In this document: one piece after another, positions 2,764 through 34,667 of the stretch
Layout: each line of letters begins with the position of its first letter
Position numbering within the stretch: position 1 is the stretch's first letter
Origin: Candidatus Endomicrobium labiotermitis
GTDB lineage: Bacteria > Elusimicrobiota > Endomicrobiia > Endomicrobiales > Endomicrobiaceae
NCBI GenBank assembly: GCA_009778965.1
Contig: WRFE01000011.1
Location: 1-34,667 of the forward strand
Reading direction: 5' to 3'
DNA length: 34,667 nucleotides
Program-made: the position numbers and the translations under genes
Notes under the pieces: generated by a model
Seen by the model: only the letters and a program-made list of their open reading frames with translations
The model's database searches: none
What the model was told of the DNA's origin: nothing

Positions 2764-3036
2764 TGTCATTTCGGAAAGCAGGAGTCGGATTGTCATCCCG
2801 TTGAAAAACGGGATCCATGTTCGTAGTTTAAAGACATGATAAAGAGATTGCGGGTCGGTGCCCGCAATGACGATAATAGTAATAATGGATTCCGCATCTA
2901 GTGCGGAATGACACAGCAGAGTATTATAGCGACTTCGCGCAGGGTGACAGCATGGGGTAAGGATTAGATTGCGGATCAAGTCCGCAATGACGATAATAGT
3001 AAAATGGGTTCCCGACTAATACTTTCGGGAATGACA
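2764..3036. repeat. Cluster of short palindromic repeats between nrdG and the cobalamin genes
   Basis: The 300-base spacer holds no gene and is almost wholly made of palindromes: 2764-2790; 2792-2818 (GTCATCCCG / CGGGATCCA arms); 2846-2880 (GATTGCGGGTC / CCCGCAATGAC); 2887-2913 (GGATTCCGC / GCGGAATGACA); a fragment near 2930-2950; 2967-3000 (GATTGCGGATC / GTCCGCAATGAC) and 3006-3036 (GGTTCCCGA / TCGGGAATGACA). The pairs 2846-2913 and 2967-3036 are two copies of one composite unit joined by the connector atgacgataatagt. No convincing promoter for the following operon is visible. Confidence 0.85.
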
Positions 3037-4547: not shown

Positions 4548-4891
4548 TGTCACCCTCTCCTTTATCAAGTAACGTGGATTGCGGGTCGGCGCCCGCAATG
4601 ACGACAAAAACTACAATGACGAAAATAACCGGCAGTATTGTCATTGCGAGTCTGCGAAGCAGGCGTGGCAATCTAGATATGAATATGTCGTTTCCGTTAG
4701 CTTTCCGGATTGAAGTGGCTGTCATTGCGGACTTGATCCGCAATCTATTTCTTTGTCACCCTGAACTTGTTTCAGGGGTCGCAGTGCGACGAATAAGGAG
4801 CACAAGCCTGCGACGGGTGCGAGATGTTAGTGCCCCGGAACTGGTAGTTCATATTTTTAAGACTAGATGCTGAAACGAGTTCAGCATGACA
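4548..4891. repeat. Palindromic repeat cluster between btuF and btuC
   Basis: The roughly 390-base spacer contains at least five elements: 4577-4604 (GATTGCGGGTC / GCCCGCAATGAC), 4639-4676 (TGTCATTGCGAG / GGCAATCTAG), 4721-4747 (GTCATTGCGGAC / CCGCAATCTA), 4755-4780 (GTCACCCTGAAC / TTTCAGGGGTC) and 4864-4891 (TAGATGCTGAAA / TTCAGCATGACA). A reading frame runs across it on the plus strand, but its predicted residues are merely the translated repeats. No other gene is seen. Confidence 0.83.
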
Positions 4892-7132: not shown

Positions 7133-7248
7133 GTCATTACCGAAAGTCGTTATCGGGAATCCACGTTATAAGGAATAGATTGCGGATCGAGTCCGCAATG
7201 ACGATAATAGTGAAAATGGATACCCGACAAAAACATTCGGGTATGCCA
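7133..7248. repeat. Palindromic repeats separating the riboswitch from btuB
   Basis: 7133-7163 is a GTCATTACCGA / TCGGGAATCCA palindrome. 7178-7248 is a third copy of the composite unit seen at 2846-2913 and 2967-3036: GATTGCGGATCGAGTCCGC, the connector atgacgataatagt, then a GGATACCCGA / TCGGGTATGCCA palindrome. No gene is encoded. Confidence 0.85.
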
Positions 7249-9171: not shown

Positions 9172-9279
9172 TTTATAATTAATAAATTTAACGGTTAAGG
9201 CATATTAATTTTTGTTTTAGCCGTTGTTATTCTATCTGATAAAACCACGCTGTCAGCGTCAAGTTTTGGCGCGATTGTC

Positions 9280-9353
9280 GTCATTGCGGTCTCCGAACCG
9301 CAATCTAATAATAAGCAATAGATTCCGGGTCAAGCCCGGAATGACAATAATAG
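9280..9353. repeat. Two palindromic repeats in the btuB-lipoprotein spacer
   Basis: 9280-9307 (GTCATTGCGGTC / GAACCGCAATCTA) and 9320-9353 (AGATTCCGGGTC / CCCGGAATGACAATAATAG). The rest of the 350-base spacer holds a weak hairpin (AACGGTTAA at 9190-9198 with TTAGCCGTT at 9217-9225) and T-rich DNA, and no gene. A poor promoter candidate is TTAGAC (9387-9392), 17 bases, TATTTT (9410-9415). Confidence 0.75.
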
Positions 9354-12000: not shown

Positions 12001-12125
12001 ACTGGTGTAGGCGAAATTGGAGTTCGTAAGGGCATAGTGACGGGTTGCCGTAGTTGCTGTCGTACTTGCGAAAGCTGGGATTCATATATATTACATTTTT
12101 AATGTTTTTAAAAACGGAGGAGAAA

Positions 12126-15100
12126 ATGTTCAAGAAATTAAAAATCAAAACGCTGGCGGTTATGGTCTTTTCATTTTGTTTTTACGGAGGATTGTTTGCT
12201 ACCAATGTCAATAACTGGGCTGATTTGAACAACGCGGTTAATTCAAAAGACACAACTATAACATTTACAACAACTACGCTACAGTTTAGCAATAAGCTTT
12301 CGACGGTAAATTATTCGAATTCAATCAATTTTTACGGCGATGTAACGCTTGACGGCAACGGTCTTTGCAGAGCATTTTACTTTAACGATGCGCCGTTTAT
12401 TAATACAGCGGTTGTATTTAACAGCGATATAAATTTTGTAAATTTTACGGCAACAACCGGCGTAGTGCTGTCTCAGTTAATCGGCGGAGTGATATTGTCG
12501 TCAAATTCAACGGTAAGCTTTGCCGGCGCTGTAAACTTTAGCGGCAATACGGCGGATTTTTGCGGCGGAGCTATATATTCAGATATGTCAATAATGAATT
12601 TTAATACAAATAATAAAAATATAATATTTGATTCAAACCGCTCAAATTTTGAAAAAGGAGGAGCGATATATATAATCAGGTCAGTTTCGAGTTTCAGCCA
12701 GTCGCTTATGAATTTCTCCACGGTAAACGGCGATATTATATTCAGTTCAAACTGTGCGGGTTATGGCGGCGGAGCGATATATGCGTCTAAATCAACAATG
12801 AGTTTTACCGCAACTAATGGGGATATAATATTCAGTTCAAACACCTCAACATCCAGCGCCGGCGGCGGACGCGGCGGTGCGGCATATGCGGATCAGTCAA
12901 TAATGAATTTTAATGTTTCAACCGGTAATATAATATTCAATTCAAATGCTTCGTTTTCTCATGGCGGAGCGATAGCCGCAGAGCAGTCGAAAATTGATTT
13001 TAACGCGATAAACGGTAATATAATATTTGATTCAAATATGTCCAATTTAGACGGAGGAGCAATACATGCAAGTCAGTCGACAATGAGTTTTAGAGCGACA
13101 AACGGGGATATAGTATTCAATTCAAATGTTTCGCTTTCTCACGGCGGAGCGATATATAATACTGATAATTCAACAATAACTTTTTCAAACGCAAATGTAA
13201 TTTTCAGCAGCAATGCGGCAATTTCCGGCGGAGCAATACGTAATTATGATAATGCAAAAATGACTTTTAAAGACGCGAATGTAATTTTCAGCAACAATGC
13301 GGCAGGCGTATACGGCGGAGCTATAAGTAATTATGGTTCTATATCATTTATCGGAAGCACGGTAATCTTTAGCAGTAATAGCGCCAGAGCGATATACAAT
13401 AGTAATTATGGAGCAACAATAACGTTTATAAATGCAAATGTTACTTTTAACGGAAATAGCGGTGCAATATGCAATTATTATCATTCAAGAATATTGTTTA
13501 CAGAAAGTACGGTAACTTTCAGCGGGAATACGGCAGCTTATGGCGGAGCGATATGGAATTACGGAAGCGGTGATATCGTCAGTGGTTCGTTAATAACCTT
13601 TTCAAACAGCAATGTAATATTTGATGGCAATGTCGCTTTAAGTTCAGGTGGCGCGATATTCAATCAATACAGGTCAACAATAACTTTTACAGGCGCAAAT
13701 GTAATCTTTAGCGGCAATACGGCAGATAATGGCGGAGCGATATACAGCAATGGCACAGGTATTTTAAATTCTATAATAAACTTTACAAACTCAAATGTAA
13801 TATTTGACGGCAATATTGCTGCAAGTTCCGGCGGAGCGATATACAACAACAACCACAGCAACAGCAGAATAAATTTTGAAACGGCATCAGGAATCACAAT
13901 AACATTTATAAATAATTATGCCGCTTTTGGAAATGATATATACAACGACGGAATAATAAATATAAGCGGTGCTGGCAACATAATATTCGGCGGCGGGATA
14001 GAAGGCGCCGGAACAATAAACAAAAGCGGTACGGGAAACGTATATTTTGAAGCAGGTTCTAAAAATGATTTCGGAATTCTTAATTTAACCGGCGGAAATG
14101 TACATTTTTCAACGTCTGCAAAAATAAACAGCATGAATGTCGGAGCGGCGGGAACGTTATCTTTAGATGTAGATTTTATAGGTTCGCTGACAAGCGTGCT
14201 GTATTTTGACAATATAACTATAAGCACTACAAACAGTAAGCTGAATATTAATGATATATCGGCAGGAGCGGTATCGCAAGGAGCAGAGAGAGCTATATTT
14301 TATTCAAACACGCAAAACAGCGGAACATTCGGAGCCGGCAATATATATGATTTGTCAAGCGGAAGCACGACAAGTTATAAATTGTCATGGGTGTCCGGAC
14401 TTTATGACGGCGGATACAGTTGGATGGGACTTTTAACTTATGGCAGCCTGGGTCAGTGGAACACATTTGCAGCGGGATATAAAGCGGTAACTTCAGGAAA
14501 TACGATAAATTTAACAAGTAATATAACTGCAACAAGCGGCGATGAAAATCCTTTTGGTTTGCCGGGATACAATAATATTACAATAGACGGATTAGGAAAT
14601 ACTATTGACGCTGACGGAAGAGCAGGGCTTGGTTTTATTTTTGATGGTTCATCAATAACATTTAGGGATATAAATTTTGAAAAATTCATTACAACGGCAA
14701 CATATGGTGGTGTAATATCTTCATCAAATTCAATAGTAAATTTAGCCGGAGCAATAACATTTAGCAGCAATACTGCGCTGACTGCAGGCGGAGCGATATA
14801 TGCGGCATACGCGTCAGGAATGATTTTTGATGCGGCAGAAGATGATATAATCTTCAATTCAAACAGAGCTGATATATTCGGCGGAGCAATATATTCACAA
14901 TCCTCGGCAATGAGCTTTAACGCAACAAACGGTAATATAATATTCAGCTCAAACAACGCGAATTATGGAGGCGGAGCAATATATGCCGCTCAGTCAACAA
15001 TAAGTTTTACAACAGATGGCAATATAATTTTCAGTTTGAACACAAGCAGTTCCGGAGGAGCAATATCTGCGCAGCAATCAATAATGAATTTTAATGTTTC

Positions 15101-17699
15101 AACCGGTAATATAATATTTAATTCAAATGTTTCGTTTTCTTCCGGAAGCGCGATATATGCGGCATACGGGTCAATGATGAGCTTTAACGCAACAAACGGA
15201 AATATAGAGTTTAATTCAAATACTGCAGGCTATTCCTATTATGGCGGGGCGATATTCGTAAATCAATCAATGTTGAGTTTTAATACAATATACGGCAATA
15301 CAATCTTCAGTTCAAATAGCGCTGGAGCCGGCGGGGCAATATATTTACAATCTTCAGTAGTGAATTTTACAGCAGGCGGTAATTTAATCTTTAATTCAAA
15401 CATCGCAAACAACTTCGGATATGGCGGAGGTATATATGCATGGCAGTCAACAATGACTTTTACAGCCTATAACATAATATTCAATTCAAACAGCGCAAAC
15501 GGCAATGGTGGAGCAATATATGCTATGTATTCAACAATGAGTTTCGTATCAACAGGTGGTAATATAGAATTTAATAGTAATACGACATCATATGGTGAAG
15601 GCGGAGCGATAGATGCTCAAAATTCAATAATGAATTTTACAACAGATGGCAATATAATATTTAGTTCTAACAGTGCAACATATGGTAGTGGCGGCGGAGC
15701 AATATTTTCAGTAGTATCAAAAATGAATTTTGCGGTTTCAACAGGAGATATAATATTCAACTCAAACAGCGCAAGACAAGGCGGAGCGATAGATGCTCAA
15801 AATTCAATAATGAATTTTACAACAGATGGCAATATAATATTTAATTCAAACAGTGTAACATATGGTAATGGAGGAGCGATATCAGCATCGTTTTCAACAA
15901 TGAGTTTCAAAGTAACAGATGGCAATATAATATTCAGTTCAAACAGTGCAAACTATGTAGGCGGAGCGATTTATAATACAGCTAATTCAAAAATAATTTT
16001 CACAGACTCAAATGTAATTTTTGCCGGCAATATTGCGGTAAGTTCCGGCGGTGCGATTTATAACGAGGGGGAATTATATTTTATCGGCGGCGCTGCTGAA
16101 TTTAAAAATAATAATGCTGCGCAGGGCAAGGATATTTATAATACTGGAACGATAAATATTGACGGCGGTGTTTTAAGGTTTCATTCGGAAATATCCGGCA
16201 ATGGAACTATAAATGTCCTTAACGGCGGCGTTCTTAAATTAATGGATAACGCGCAGTTGTCAGTCGGTGATATATTTGTTTCTTCTACAGGCGTTCTAAG
16301 CGCGCAAAACGGAACATTCGACGTTATAACTGTTGATAATCTTACTCTTTACGGATTGCTGGAACTTGACGCCAGCCAAACAGAAAATGATAGAGTAAAC
16401 GTCGCAAATACGGCAAATATCAACGGGCGTTTAAACGTTAAAACAGGGCTTGGCGTTTATAATGACGTTCAGCTTGAAATTATGAATTACGGTTCTCTTA
16501 TAGGCGGGTTTTCTGAAGTTTCAGCAGGGAATTTGGATTATTTGACATCTTATGAACATGACAAATTGGTTTTGACTCTAAATTCAACAGGAACGGCAGC
16601 GCCCGTATTTTCCGCAGTTTCCAATCTTAATTCTAACGCTTCCGCCGCCGCAAAAGCATTAGACAAACTTATAAATACAGAAAGTTACGACAGTCCTATA
16701 ATGCAGGTTGCAAACGTTATAAACGAGATGGAAAGCGAAAGCGCCAAAGCGCAAGCCGTACATAAACTTGCAGGACATTTTCTTGCAAACGTGATAAGAA
16801 ATGCGGCGGCAGACAGCCCCAATAACGAAATATACGATAAAATAAAGAATAACGGCGAAGGACACGGAAGCTGGGCGCAGTTAAAAGGCGGCGTAGAGAC
16901 CTTTAATTCCGACGAAAATTCGCCTTATCACTATAAAGACCATTCCGTGGGAGTTATGTTCGGCTATGATAAATATTCAGAACAGAATAATATCATATAC
17001 GGAGTTTACGCGAGATTTAATAAAGATAATATAAGTTATGGAGACAGCGACAATAAAGCCGAAGGCGTAAAAAAAGGGCTTGGTTTTTACGGCGGTTATC
17101 TGAAAGAGAAATATGAATTAAAGGCAATGCTTTTGGGCAGTTATGACCAGTTTGAAACTCAAAGAGACGTCAGAATAGGACATCTCGGCGGTATAGCAAG
17201 AGCCGATATTAACGCGTTTACTATTAATGCCGACGCTGAAGCTGCTTTGAGATATGCTGTGAAAGAGGATTTAGCGGTAAAACCTTATGTGGGTTTTGAA
17301 ATGGAAAATACTAATTATGGAAGTTTTAAAGAAAGAGACGCCAGCGGAGTAAATCTTGAAGTCGACGGCGGCACTTATTTGAGAACAGCCGTAAGAGCGG
17401 GAGTGGGCGGGGAATACGATAATAAAAAGTTAAACGCTTATACAAGGCTTGAAGGCAAAGTTATTACCAGCGGGAGAGAACCTGTGACGTCAAATAGTTT
17501 CGAGAATACAAGCGTCATTTTTGATTCTGTAGGAAGTGAGGAAGGAGCGCTCCAGATAGGCATAGGCGGCGGAGCCGAATTGAAATTGACGGGAAACATC
17601 AGCGCTTTTGCAAATATCCAAACCTATTTTGCAGCCAGATACAGCAATGTTTACGGTAATTTGGGTGTAAGATATATGTTTGGTAAAAACAGAGAATAA
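12126..17699 (+). CDS. Pmp-like autotransporter with duplicated GGAI/FxxN passenger
   Basis: A type V secreted surface protein of 1857 residues. A signal peptide (MFKKLKIKTLAVMVFSFCF and on, ending near GGLFA) is followed by a very long passenger made of short repeats with GGAI (about 25 exact and several degenerate copies) alternating with FSSN, FNSN or FSGN. These are the two motifs that define Chlamydia polymorphic outer-membrane proteins and imply a right-handed beta-helix. The passenger has two similar halves, each with a Trp-containing header, the GGAI array and a closing DIYNxGxINI segment. The last 280 or so residues (from GHGSWAQLKGG) form the autotransporter barrel, ending GVRYMFGKNRE. 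ATG at 12126 is preferred over the upstream TTG at 12054: GGAGGAG precedes it by a few bases and the signal peptide begins there. Role is probably adhesion or surface variation, inferred from the family. Confidence 0.92.
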   Translation: MFKKLKIKTLAVMVFSFCFYGGLFATNVNNWADLNNAVNSKDTTITFTTTTLQFSNKLSTVNYSNSINFYGDVTLDGNGLCRAFYFNDAPFINTAVVFNSDINFVNFTATTGVVLSQLIGGVILSSNSTVSFAGAVNFSGNTADFCGGAIYSDMSIMNFNTNNKNIIFDSNRSNFEKGGAIYIIRSVSSFSQSLMNFSTVNGDIIFSSNCAGYGGGAIYASKSTMSFTATNGDIIFSSNTSTSSAGGGRGGAAYADQSIMNFNVSTGNIIFNSNASFSHGGAIAAEQSKIDFNAINGNIIFDSNMSNLDGGAIHASQSTMSFRATNGDIVFNSNVSLSHGGAIYNTDNSTITFSNANVIFSSNAAISGGAIRNYDNAKMTFKDANVIFSNNAAGVYGGAISNYGSISFIGSTVIFSSNSARAIYNSNYGATITFINANVTFNGNSGAICNYYHSRILFTESTVTFSGNTAAYGGAIWNYGSGDIVSGSLITFSNSNVIFDGNVALSSGGAIFNQYRSTITFTGANVIFSGNTADNGGAIYSNGTGILNSIINFTNSNVIFDGNIAASSGGAIYNNNHSNSRINFETASGITITFINNYAAFGNDIYNDGIINISGAGNIIFGGGIEGAGTINKSGTGNVYFEAGSKNDFGILNLTGGNVHFSTSAKINSMNVGAAGTLSLDVDFIGSLTSVLYFDNITISTTNSKLNINDISAGAVSQGAERAIFYSNTQNSGTFGAGNIYDLSSGSTTSYKLSWVSGLYDGGYSWMGLLTYGSLGQWNTFAAGYKAVTSGNTINLTSNITATSGDENPFGLPGYNNITIDGLGNTIDADGRAGLGFIFDGSSITFRDINFEKFITTATYGGVISSSNSIVNLAGAITFSSNTALTAGGAIYAAYASGMIFDAAEDDIIFNSNRADIFGGAIYSQSSAMSFNATNGNIIFSSNNANYGGGAIYAAQSTISFTTDGNIIFSLNTSSSGGAISAQQSIMNFNVSTGNIIFNSNVSFSSGSAIYAAYGSMMSFNATNGNIEFNSNTAGYSYYGGAIFVNQSMLSFNTIYGNTIFSSNSAGAGGAIYLQSSVVNFTAGGNLIFNSNIANNFGYGGGIYAWQSTMTFTAYNIIFNSNSANGNGGAIYAMYSTMSFVSTGGNIEFNSNTTSYGEGGAIDAQNSIMNFTTDGNIIFSSNSATYGSGGGAIFSVVSKMNFAVSTGDIIFNSNSARQGGAIDAQNSIMNFTTDGNIIFNSNSVTYGNGGAISASFSTMSFKVTDGNIIFSSNSANYVGGAIYNTANSKIIFTDSNVIFAGNIAVSSGGAIYNEGELYFIGGAAEFKNNNAAQGKDIYNTGTINIDGGVLRFHSEISGNGTINVLNGGVLKLMDNAQLSVGDIFVSSTGVLSAQNGTFDVITVDNLTLYGLLELDASQTENDRVNVANTANINGRLNVKTGLGVYNDVQLEIMNYGSLIGGFSEVSAGNLDYLTSYEHDKLVLTLNSTGTAAPVFSAVSNLNSNASAAAKALDKLINTESYDSPIMQVANVINEMESESAKAQAVHKLAGHFLANVIRNAAADSPNNEIYDKIKNNGEGHGSWAQLKGGVETFNSDENSPYHYKDHSVGVMFGYDKYSEQNNIIYGVYARFNKDNISYGDSDNKAEGVKKGLGFYGGYLKEKYELKAMLLGSYDQFETQRDVRIGHLGGIARADINAFTINADAEAALRYAVKEDLAVKPYVGFEMENTNYGSFKERDASGVNLEVDGGTYLRTAVRAGVGGEYDNKKLNAYTRLEGKVITSGREPVTSNSFENTSVIFDSVGSEEGALQIGIGGGAELKLTGNISAFANIQTYFAARYSNVYGNLGVRYMFGKNRE
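15598..15843 (+). repeat. Two identical 66-base blocks, 180 bases apart, in the autotransporter gene
   Basis: Bases 15598-15663 and 15778-15843 are identical (encoding GGAIDAQNSIMNFTTDGNII) and offset by exactly 180 bases, or 60 codons. The interval thus contains two recombination partners that keep the frame. The flanks of the two copies are also similar but not identical. Confidence 0.85.
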
Positions 17700-31103: not shown

Positions 31104-31466
31104 ATGAAATTCATTAAATTGTCTTATGTTTGTGCTGTTTTTATATTTATTACTTTAATTTGCTCCTGCGGTGGCAGAGGAACGCTGTATGAAGTAAAAT
31201 ATGAAATAGCAGGAACTACTTCGTCAGTAGATATCGTTATAGAAGTTGACGGAGAAACATATGAATATAATGATATCGATTTACCGTTTCAAAAAACTTT
31301 TAATGTATTACGTAAAGGCAGATCAGCGGTTGTATTGGATATTTATAAAAATAATTACGGGACAGCTATGGCAACAATATATATAGACAAAGATCCTGCC
31401 TGCTCTGCGATATATGAATCAGGAAGAATGGGATATACCCGGCTTGAAACTGTAATAGGATATTAA
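31104..31466 (+). CDS. Small lipoprotein, MmpS-like beta-sandwich suspected
   Basis: A 120-residue protein with a lipoprotein signal ending LICSC, making Cys22 the probable acylated residue with Gly at +2. The mature part (LYEVKYEIAGTTSSVDIVIE, then LPFQKTFNV and ATIYIDKD) has the layout of small exported beta-sandwich proteins of the MmpS type (YEV...G...LPW.K), a weak resemblance. AAAAGGAAAA lies about 10 bases before the ATG. Its stop codon overlaps that of the convergent PHP-helicase gene by 3 bases. It is divergent from the nuclease gene but is a lipoprotein, so it does not look like a cytoplasmic immunity factor. Confidence 0.7.
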   Translation: MKFIKLSYVCAVFIFITLICSCGGRGTLYEVKYEIAGTTSSVDIVIEVDGETYEYNDIDLPFQKTFNVLRKGRSAVVLDIYKNNYGTAMATIYIDKDPACSAIYESGRMGYTRLETVIGY

Positions 31467-34417
31467 AACAAATCAAGCTGGCGGGATTGTTCTTTTGCTT
31501 TAAGCGCTTTTTCAATTTTGCTGAACTTTAACAAATCATTTTCAATTTTTTCCAGAAATGGCGACGGAGCCAGTTTTTTATAGGTTCCGAGCCATTTTCT
31601 TTTTATTGAACGCGTCAAAAACAACCTTTGTTCCGCTCTTGTCATACCTACGTATAACAAACGCCTTTCTTCTTCTTTTTCGTCTTGGGTTTTAGCGCGA
31701 TAAAAAGGAATAATGTCCTGCTCAAGCCCAACTATAAAAACACATTTAAATTCTAAACCTTTTGAAGAATGTAATGTGAGTAATGAAATCCTGTCGGCTC
31801 TTTTATCAAGCGTGTCTATTTCGGACAGCATAGAAACTTCATGAATAAATTCATTTTTAGTTGTATAAGTCTGTGCAAGTTTTGTAAAGTATTGCAAAAT
31901 ATTGTCATCTATTTTATCGGAAAATTCCTTATTAAGCTTGCCTAATTGTTCAATAACCGGTTTTTCGTCGGTTAACAAGCTTAACAGTTTTACAACCGGT
32001 TTTTTGTCGCACAGCAAATCGTTAGATAACTTTACATAAGGCATTCCGGATCTTTTTAAAGCTTCAATAATTGGCGGCAGCTGTGAAGCGCTGCGGTATA
32101 AAACGGCAAAATCCGAAAATGAAAGATTAGTTTCTTCTCCGGCAGATCTGTTTGTATCAATAGAAAAGAAACTGTGCCCTCCTATCATTTTTTCAATAGT
32201 GCTTACAACGAATTCGGCTTCCGCTTTGTCTGTCGGCGCAGTATGTATGGTAATTTTTTCGTGGGGTCTGTCATATTTTGCAATTATATTATGCGAATCA
32301 ACTATCTGGTTTGACGCATTTACAATAGTCTCTGTGGAACGGTAATTGTTTTTTAAATTAATTATCTCTGCGTCAGGGTAATCTTTGGTAAAGTTGTTAA
32401 AAAACTTTGAATCTCCTCCGCGGAAACCGTAAATCGCCTGATTCGGGTCGCCTATTACGCACAAATTAGCGTTTGAATGCGTCAATAATCTGATTAATTC
32501 ATACTGGGTTTCATCAATATCCTGGTATTCATCAATCGAAATATATTTAAACGTTTCTTTATATGATTTGGCAATATCAGGATTATCATTAAGGAGTTTC
32601 AGCGTAAGGCTTATTAAATCGTCAAAACCCAGCATATTATCATCGGATTTAGATAAACTCATCTCCTCTTTGCTTGCCACCTTAAAATCGAGGTTTAAGC
32701 CTGCTTTAGAGGCATTTTCTTTTAGAATGGAAAAACATAGAGAATGAAAAGTATGTACATTAACATTTGAATAATTTTTAGTAAGCAGCAAATTAAGTCT
32801 GTCCTGCATTTCTTTTGCAGCTCTGCGCGTAAAAGTTATGGCAAGGCAGTTTTCAGGGGAAATATTATTTTCCGAAACAGCAAAGGCAATGCGTTTTGTT
32901 AATACTGTAGTCTTTCCTGAGCCGGGTCCCGCTATGATTAAAAGCTGCTTTTTATTGTTTTTTACAACGCTTAACTGATATTCGTCAAGTCCCGACAGAA
33001 TGCCTTTGTCATTATAAGACCTAAGAGTTTTGTCATCCCCGAATGTCTGTATCGGGGATCCATTTTTAAACGTGGTTTCCCGATAGAAACCCTCGGGAAT
33101 GACAGACGAAGTAGTTTCTTTATCTTTCTTCTTCGGCTTCGCAGAAACTGCCATATCAAACATCAAATTAGTGCTATTCAGTTCGTCCTGCTCAAACAGC
33201 TTTATCACGCCGTATTCGCCGTCAAAGCCCGCTTGTCTTATAACTTTGCCTGCTCTTAAGCGCGATATTGCTTCTCCGAGGAGCGAAGAATGATTTTTTG
33301 ATATTTCGTTTACAGGAATTTCTCGTAGTATAGATAATTCAGGTCCTAATTTTTGTATTAAGTTTTCATACGCGTTATTTACCGCATTGCTTGAAACTCC
33401 GACCTGTATAATTTCCGAAAGAATTTCCTGTAAAGGCACAAGGCTGAATGTTTTGCCTGCCGTTTTAGGAATTATCAAATTGCTGCCTTTACGGTCGGCT
33501 AATTCATTGACTCTGTTAAGAACTCCTATTGTCAGAGGTTTGTTGCATACCGGACAAATTCCTTTAAGTTTTACCGTTTCTTCGGGACTTAAACAAACAT
33601 TACATTTTCTGTGTCCGTCTTCATGATATTTTCCCTCTTCGGGGAAAAATTCTACTGTACCGACATAGCCTTTACCGGTTTGCAATGCTTTCATTATGGA
33701 AAAATAGTCAGGGTCAGTATCAAAAACAGTGGCTTCACGGGCAAGTTTAGAGGGAGAATGAGCGTCGGAATTAGATATCAGTCTGTATTTATCAAGGCTT
33801 GAAACCCTGTAGTTCATTTCCGGATCTGATGATAAGCCTGTTTCTACTGCGAATATATGGTCTGCAAGGTCTGCGTAGCAATCTTTTACTGAATCAAAAC
33901 CAGACTTTGAACCTAATACGGAAAACCACGGGGTCCAAATATGCGCAGGAACTATAAACGAACCCTCACCGGATTCTAAAGTGATTTCCAGAAGATTTCT
34001 TGAATCAAGCCCCAGTATAGGGCGTCCGTCTGAAACGATATTCCCTACGGCGGAAAGTTTTTGTCTCAGCTTTTCTGCGCTGTTGAAATCCGGAACAAAT
34101 ACTATATGATGGACTTTTCTTGTTTTATCGCCTTTTTTATAGATGGTTGATATTTCAACCGATAAAACAAATCTGACAATTTTGTTATCTTTTACAATTT
34201 GTTTTTCTATATCGTCTCGTAGTTTAAAAACGCCGGGACCCGCGGGAACAAGCTTTTCTTTTATTTCGGCAAACCAGGCAGGATGGGTAAAATCGCCCGT
34301 TGTTATTAGGGTTAGTCCTTTCTTTTGCGCCCATATAGCAAGCTCTTCCAAATTACAGCTTTTGCTTGTGGCGCGTGAATATTTTGAATGTATATGCAAA
34401 TCCGCATAAAAAAACAT
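31463..34417 (-). CDS. PHP-domain/UvrD-type DNA helicase fusion protein
   Basis: A 984-residue two-part protein. Residues 1 to about 300 are a PHP metallo-phosphoesterase-type domain of the TIGR00375 group: YADLHIHSKYSRATSKSCNL at the N-terminus, ISNSDAHSPSKLAREATVFD, and a zinc ribbon near 272-296 (CNVC...CPVC). A helix-hairpin-helix-like segment follows. From about residue 475 it is an SF1A UvrD/PcrA/Rep helicase: Walker A AGPGSGKTT (about 495-503), SIDEYQDID, VIGDPNQAIYGFRGGDSKFF, LKNNYRSTE, LLTLHSSKGLEF and YVGMTRAEQRL. A DNA repair or replication-restart role is inferred. Residues of about 438-463 in the linker are encoded by two dispersed palindromic repeats. ATG at 34417 has AAGGG about 6 bases upstream on its strand. 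Confidence 0.93.
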   Translation of the reverse strand: MFFYADLHIHSKYSRATSKSCNLEELAIWAQKKGLTLITTGDFTHPAWFAEIKEKLVPAGPGVFKLRDDIEKQIVKDNKIVRFVLSVEISTIYKKGDKTRKVHHIVFVPDFNSAEKLRQKLSAVGNIVSDGRPILGLDSRNLLEITLESGEGSFIVPAHIWTPWFSVLGSKSGFDSVKDCYADLADHIFAVETGLSSDPEMNYRVSSLDKYRLISNSDAHSPSKLAREATVFDTDPDYFSIMKALQTGKGYVGTVEFFPEEGKYHEDGHRKCNVCLSPEETVKLKGICPVCNKPLTIGVLNRVNELADRKGSNLIIPKTAGKTFSLVPLQEILSEIIQVGVSSNAVNNAYENLIQKLGPELSILREIPVNEISKNHSSLLGEAISRLRAGKVIRQAGFDGEYGVIKLFEQDELNSTNLMFDMAVSAKPKKKDKETTSSVIPEGFYRETTFKNGSPIQTFGDDKTLRSYNDKGILSGLDEYQLSVVKNNKKQLLIIAGPGSGKTTVLTKRIAFAVSENNISPENCLAITFTRRAAKEMQDRLNLLLTKNYSNVNVHTFHSLCFSILKENASKAGLNLDFKVASKEEMSLSKSDDNMLGFDDLISLTLKLLNDNPDIAKSYKETFKYISIDEYQDIDETQYELIRLLTHSNANLCVIGDPNQAIYGFRGGDSKFFNNFTKDYPDAEIINLKNNYRSTETIVNASNQIVDSHNIIAKYDRPHEKITIHTAPTDKAEAEFVVSTIEKMIGGHSFFSIDTNRSAGEETNLSFSDFAVLYRSASQLPPIIEALKRSGMPYVKLSNDLLCDKKPVVKLLSLLTDEKPVIEQLGKLNKEFSDKIDDNILQYFTKLAQTYTTKNEFIHEVSMLSEIDTLDKRADRISLLTLHSSKGLEFKCVFIVGLEQDIIPFYRAKTQDEKEEERRLLYVGMTRAEQRLFLTRSIKRKWLGTYKKLAPSPFLEKIENDLLKFSKIEKALKAKEQSRQLDLF
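33032..33104 (-). repeat. Palindromic repeat pair inside the PHP-UvrD reading frame
   Basis: On the plus strand GTCATCCCCGAA / TATCGGGGATCCA (33032-33062) and TTTCCCGATAGA / CCTCGGGAATGACA (about 33076-33104), the same families as the spacer elements at 2792-2818, 3006-3036 and 7133-7163. Translated on the minus strand they give about 24 residues (IPEGFYRETTFKNGSPIQTF region) between the PHP and helicase domains. Confidence 0.82.
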
Positions 34418-34445: not shown

Positions 34446-34637
34446 GCGTTACACGCAGGCTCACATACGGCGCTTCGCTCCAAAGTATGCTTCGCCTGCG
34501 CGTGCCTTGTCTAAACGAAAAATATTTTGTTTTTAGTATTGCTGTGTCACCCTGAACTTGTTTCAGGGTCTATTATCGTCATTCCGGGCTTGACCCGGAA
34601 TCTAAACGACTAGATGCTGAATCAAGTTCAGCATGAC
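34446..34637. repeat. Repeat cluster upstream of the PHP-UvrD gene
   Basis: The last 250 bases contain no gene. 34446-34505 is a large imperfect palindrome (GCGTTACACGCAGGC / GCCTGCGCGTGCC). 34545-34604 joins GTCACCCTGAAC / TTTCAGGGTC to GTCATTCCGGGC / GCCCGGAATCTA through ctattatcgtcat, the reverse of the connector seen in the composite repeats. 34611-34637 is TAGATGCTGAAT / TTCAGCATGACA. Confidence 0.8.
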
Positions 34638-34667
34638 AAAGTGTTTTTAACCTCAAAATTATAGCAA

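Follow-up and report, generated by a model that had tools for sequence, protein, structure and literature searches.

An in-frame palindromic dimer, probably of the CGTC-tagged REP type, in the linker of a PHP-UvrD helicase gene of an Endomicrobium relative

CGTC-tagged REPs are characterised by an unpaired TGTC or CGTC tag at one end, a stem of 8-9 bp opening with AT, a loop of 4-5 nt (other loops occur in a few species), a CCA tail and an arrangement in HH dimers (PMC3733652). They lie mainly in spacers, they have no dedicated transposase, and dimers located within genes, including those for a UvrD/REP helicase and DNA polymerase I, code for 20-30 amino acids; the survey lists them in Proteobacteria, Chlorobi, Bacteroidetes, Spirochaetes and Thermotogae, and not in Elusimicrobiota (PMC3733652). 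In Rickettsia, RPE-4, RPE-6 and RPE-7 are in-frame inserts with an ATGAC signature whose hosts include DNA repair and replication genes, and in R. japonica the same loci in orthologues were reported to hold different RPE groups, the choice between an insertion hotspot and divergence of a single insert being left undecided in that paper (PMC3767692). RPE-1, as cited in these papers, is a separately named group of ORF-internal, frame-keeping palindromes of the 100-150 bp class (PMC3733652, PMC3767692), while REPINs are inverted doublets of GTAG REPs that have been described as miniature mobile DNA and have a RAYT transposase (PMC3116915, PMC2817692).

The DNA analysed here (the window, 34,667 nucleotides) is contig C11 of genome G000 (1.89 Mb in 107 contigs, 99.97% complete), which appears to come from a relative of Endomicrobium (phylum Elusimicrobiota); G003 denotes a sister species, the other G-labels genomes of relatives and the L-labels loci. 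According to PMC11257099, E. proavitum is the sole Endomicrobium isolate. A repeat within a helicase gene of this window shares with the CGTC-tagged REPs the TGTC tag (on both of its units, and family-wide), the CCA tail on both units and an 8-bp stem in unit 1 (ATCCCCGA/TCGGGGAT), the outermost pair of which is missing from unit 2. It differs in its 9-nt loops, although many other units in G000 have loops of 4-5 nt (GAAA, CTTGA). By description it is also like RPE-1, which is longer. The resemblance to RPE-4 and RPE-6 is seen in behaviour: an in-frame insert is present at the same locus in several species, sometimes as another subtype (helicase of G000 and G003, PolA of G000, G001 and G003), and the Endomicrobium repeats appear to work like these elements, without membership being claimed. 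The ATGAC signature is common to both, and genes of DNA repair or replication are again among the hosts. Differences from RPE-4, -6 and -7 are the phylum, the 1.9 Mb genome and the occurrence of unrelated heptad-type repeats in some of the same loops.

The helicase dimer and its repeat family

The host gene encodes a protein of 984 amino acids with UvrD-helicase (4.7e-64) and UvrD_C (1.8e-38) domains by Pfam, the UvrD/PcrA-type part beginning at about residue 471. Residues 5-405 match TIGR00375 (E=4.9e-51), under the curated cut-off of that family, and this region is taken as PHP-like. Full-length orthologues with 77-87% identity were found in G003, G015, G023 and G020, and further named ones among Endomicrobium and Candidatus Endomicrobiellum records; the gene is thus conserved.

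Positions 33031-33104 hold a pair of converging palindromes (GTCATCCCCGA..TCGGGGATCCA and a TTCCCGA partner; Table 1), with their TGTC tags pointing outward and the reading frame free of frameshifts and stops. In the helicase frame unit 1 reads G-S-P-I-Q-T-F-G-D-D and unit 2 V-I-P-E-G-F-Y-R-E-T, and the dimer as a whole codes for about 25 residues (approximately 438-463). The original prediction had placed such repeats in frame between two folded domains, and this was borne out: the residues fall between the PHP-like region and the helicase, in a stretch (416-470) modelled as coil throughout with pLDDT below 50 (AlphaFold2, 30 sequences; mean pLDDT of the protein 76.6). The dimer is predicted to fold as a single strong hairpin (-37 kcal/mol). 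By sequence, the segment is best described as a CGTC-tagged REP "HH" dimer, and the tract adjoining unit 1 is possibly the remnant of an older REP end, the corresponding place in G003 reading CAATGACAAAGG, a REP end of the TTGCGAGG type.

Table 1. Positions in the window of the helicase gene and of the repeat features within it
Feature	Position	Strand	Description or basis
PHP-like (TIGR00375) and UvrD/PcrA-type helicase fusion gene, 984 aa, repeat host	31463..34417	-	Pfam and TIGR00375 profiles, orthologues
Disordered inter-domain linker (predicted), residues 416-470, repeat within	33008..33172	-	AlphaFold2
Tract GTCATTATAAGACCTAAGAGTTT adjoining unit 1	33008..33030	+	Sequence, alignment with G003
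REP unit 1	33031..33062	+	TGTCATCCCCGA-ATGTCTGTA-TCGGGGATCCA: tag, 8-bp stem, 9-nt loop, CCA tail; scored as REP hairpin
REP unit 2	33073..33104	-	TGTCATTCCCGA-GGGTTTCTA-TCGGGAAACCA; repeat family D19; same base in sister G003

The helicase segment gave 24-35 matches in its own genome, itself included (E of at most 1e-3), among them full-length dimer copies such as the one at C39:8370-8447 (81% over 78 bp, E=5e-13). A strict REP pattern identified 235 units in G000 (1 with the reversed-pattern control), 128 in G003 (control 0), 217 in G023 and at most 10 in each of G015, G020 and G010; an earlier permissive hairpin scan, with 36 found against 10.8 expected by chance, was superseded by these stricter scans. 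The highest number of strict matches among 41 genomes was observed in G017 (492; 2.2 Mb, same family). Among 131 sampled units picked by their outer bases only, the arms paired at variable stem positions in 78-97%, against 34-54% if they were independent (in G000, 97% vs 53% expected for pair 1 and 80% vs 34% for pair 6). Neighbouring pairs less than 100 bp apart were predominantly convergent and tag-outward (92/107), the HH arrangement of the CGTC-tagged REPs.

The repeats had been thought to lie otherwise in spacers, and the census agreed with this for the most part. Within the stretches around listed copies, an incomplete sample of the family, 22 of 159 units in G000 and 15 of 118 in G003 lay inside ORFs of at least 100 amino acids, though such ORFs made up 86% of the sampled DNA in G000 and 86-89% over both genomes; the 22 in G000 were mostly in short ORFs or N-terminal ORF parts. 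REPs were also seen within or close to the 5' end of the longest ORF at loci encoding PGK (L175:2068-2146), an ABC substrate-binding protein (L171:8912-9017), SerS (L208:1700-1727) and a putative DNA repair protein of the TIGR03915 family (L256:2542-2643), where they may lie upstream of the real start.

No gene for a Y1/RAYT-type tyrosine transposase (PF01797, Y1_Tnp) was found in G000, in keeping with the CGTC-tagged REPs and in contrast to the REPINs with their GTAG tag and RAYT as described in the sources cited; G001 and G003 have one PF01797 gene each. No target-site duplication was recognised.

Other in-frame copies, empty sites and changing fillings

A search for other coding copies was productive. 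Among the sampled loci, internal in-frame REPs were identified in KsgA/RsmA and PolA of G000 and, in G003, in PolA, MurJ, PrmC and FolK, in a U32-peptidase-like gene and in an ORF of 1027 aa that falls in no recognised family. Together with the helicase copy they display the RPE-like behaviour that had been proposed, in-frame palindromes making new peptide segments. The accompanying suggestion that they are tolerated in linkers only did not hold, as inserts interrupt the RrnaAD domain of KsgA, the MurJ domain of MurJ and the HPPK domain of FolK. The inserts of PrmC and KsgA resemble intergenic dimers, spacer included (85% over 93 bp and 83% over 101 bp, respectively), and clean filled/empty pairs of congeners were obtained for three genes, the protein lacking the insert being contiguous from query residue 240 to 273 for MurJ (G000), 88 to 126 for KsgA (G003) and 115 to 148 for PrmC (G000).

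As to the proposal that the repeats are or were mobile, their dispersal and the empty sites speak for it, rather than any insertion caught in progress; a PF01797 transposase gene is missing from G000. Relative to the published CGTC-tagged REP survey, the empty sites in congeners are here seen directly.

The same loops were found to be filled differently from species to species. In KsgA, G000 has a REP dimer in the loop, G001 about 70 residues in which heptad-like repeats are mixed with palindromic ones, G002 a tandem of REP-like and heptad-like parts and G003 a short remnant of heptad-like type; the loop is empty in G015 and G010. In MurJ it holds an AT-rich repeat plus a REP in G003, GGAGTCA heptads in G001 and a short tract in G000, and is empty in G002, G015 and G023. 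PolA of three congeners (L196:1900-1995 in G003, L264 in G000 and L263 in G001) carries repeat-derived residues between the 5'-3' and 3'-5' exonuclease domains; the inserts of G001 and G003 are homologous (alignment score 66.5, shuffles at most 48), so that shared old inserts do occur, and that of G000 combines a different REP with a TTACGAA repeat. A second repeat class, which has heptad-like arms (AAAGTGGAAAGTGG, GGAGTCAGGAGTC, TTACGAATTACGAA) and several times has TTAACGGC after them, is in frame in the KsgA and MurJ loops (L292-L297, L310-L316) or the PolA linker of G001, G002 and G000. Because unrelated repeat classes and empty sites are both present, these comparisons favour a hotspot with turnover over divergence of one insert, some inserts probably being ancient and shared.

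Origin of the helicase segment

Between two chosen anchors the linker measures 68 aa in the window, 64 in G003 and 58-65 in repeat-free Endomicrobiaceae. The repeat residues, expected as an insertion of about 24, are indeed absent from the ten close orthologues without a repeat (G015, G023, G020, L078-L082, L094, L096), which carry other residues there, so that a linker conserved independently of the repeat, the finding that would have spoken against the original prediction, was not encountered; a clean addition was not seen either, since the window linker exceeds the repeat-free ones by 3-10 residues only, which points to replacement of the native linker rather than addition of 24 residues. 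The insert is not unique to the window species: the flanks in G003 are homologous, and the hairpin that comes first in gene order begins there at the identical base (CTTCGYC|TGTCATTCCCGA) and encodes VIPEGSNRE in place of VIPEGFYRE. An assembly artefact was ruled out by related inserts in the independent genomes G003 and G001. Over the window as a whole, G003 aligned at length in the helicase gene alone, and spacer copies common to both could therefore not be compared.

The reading preferred here, to which a probability of about 0.85 is given, is that the segment is a CGTC-tagged REP dimer which entered the linker in an ancestor shared with G003 and was later reworked, with similar events in other tolerant loops (PolA, KsgA, MurJ, PrmC). 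The element would be a non-autonomous, dispersed dimer of about 75 bp, occasionally inserted by some enzyme; in the PHP-UvrD linker it would have survived because both units can be read through in this register and lie in a disordered stretch, leaving the helicase intact and the new peptide probably neutral, and gene-breaking insertions would have been purged, hence the preponderance of spacer copies. Native residues would then have been lost and the second hairpin become species-specific; exchange with other REP copies (recombination or gene conversion) or a renewed insertion is the most likely route. In G003 this second hairpin is of a different REP subtype (TGTCATTGCGAGGA...CGCGGTAATCC) with its own dispersed copies.

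The evidence bearing on alternatives comes largely from the same comparison. That similar dimers entered one hotspot independently in the two species is doubtful, though it has some appeal: the window dimer can be aligned from end to end with an intergenic dimer of G003 (84% over 77 bp), but with the G003 helicase insert in the first hairpin only, the loops of the shared hairpin differ, and the KsgA and MurJ loops are filled by different repeats in each species. The identical starting base after homologous flanks argues instead for one insertion, and the PolA inserts of G001 and G003, with their alignment well above shuffles, show that such sharing occurs. Between the window and G003 the shared hairpin has no stem changes in 16 positions and loop changes in 5 of 9 (Fisher p=0.002), a pattern suggestive of maintenance or homogenisation and not of decay alone. 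It weighs against the preferred reading, as do the missing PF01797 gene, the missing target-site duplication and the replaced, not cleanly enlarged, linker.

This intact stem, like the folding energy of the dimer, would also fit a hairpin retained for a task in the DNA or mRNA of the helicase gene (pausing, mRNA stability or protein binding) with the peptide incidental. Such a role is unlikely, however, as the stem conservation concerns a single shared hairpin and thus a very small sample, the second hairpin is of another subtype in G003, orthologues at 77-80% identity have none, and in PolA of G001 the tendency is opposite, with REP stems eroded. Selection of the peptide for altering a repair enzyme, following the mutator idea put forward for REP-carrying repair genes (Di Nocera 2013), is more improbable still. 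Two of the interrupted genes do serve repair (PHP-UvrD and PolA), matching the published UvrD/REP helicase and DNA polymerase I (PMC3733652), but KsgA, MurJ, PrmC, FolK and the U32 peptidase are not repair genes, the residues vary among species and disorder is predicted at the helicase site.

Since repeats, alike or not, occur in sister species both in this gene and elsewhere, the event is of a known kind, and protein segments made from repeats, for which Rickettsia is the best-known case, are extended to a phylum missing from the CGTC-REP survey (PMC3733652). The filled/empty pairs and species-specific fillings allow the spread of REPs without a known transposase, and REPs as a regular source of peptide, to be tested. 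A more tentative extension is that some loops of conserved Endomicrobium proteins might be standing docking sites, where one repeat family takes the place of another through recombination or re-insertion and each species rewrites the same segments with the repeats it has; new linker peptides would then keep arising from REPs and would not be rare accidents.

Elsewhere in the window, clusters of REP units whose stems fall into several subtypes, GTCATGCTGAACTTGATTCAGCATCT and GTCATTCCGGGCTTGACCCGGAATCT among them, were observed in the spacers at 2792-3036, 4575-4891, 7133-7248, 9252-9346 and 34546-34638. A 1881-aa ORF at 12054-17699 contains many repeats of about 90 nt with GGAI...FSSN motifs and, from its sequence, looks like a Pmp-like autotransporter repeat protein.
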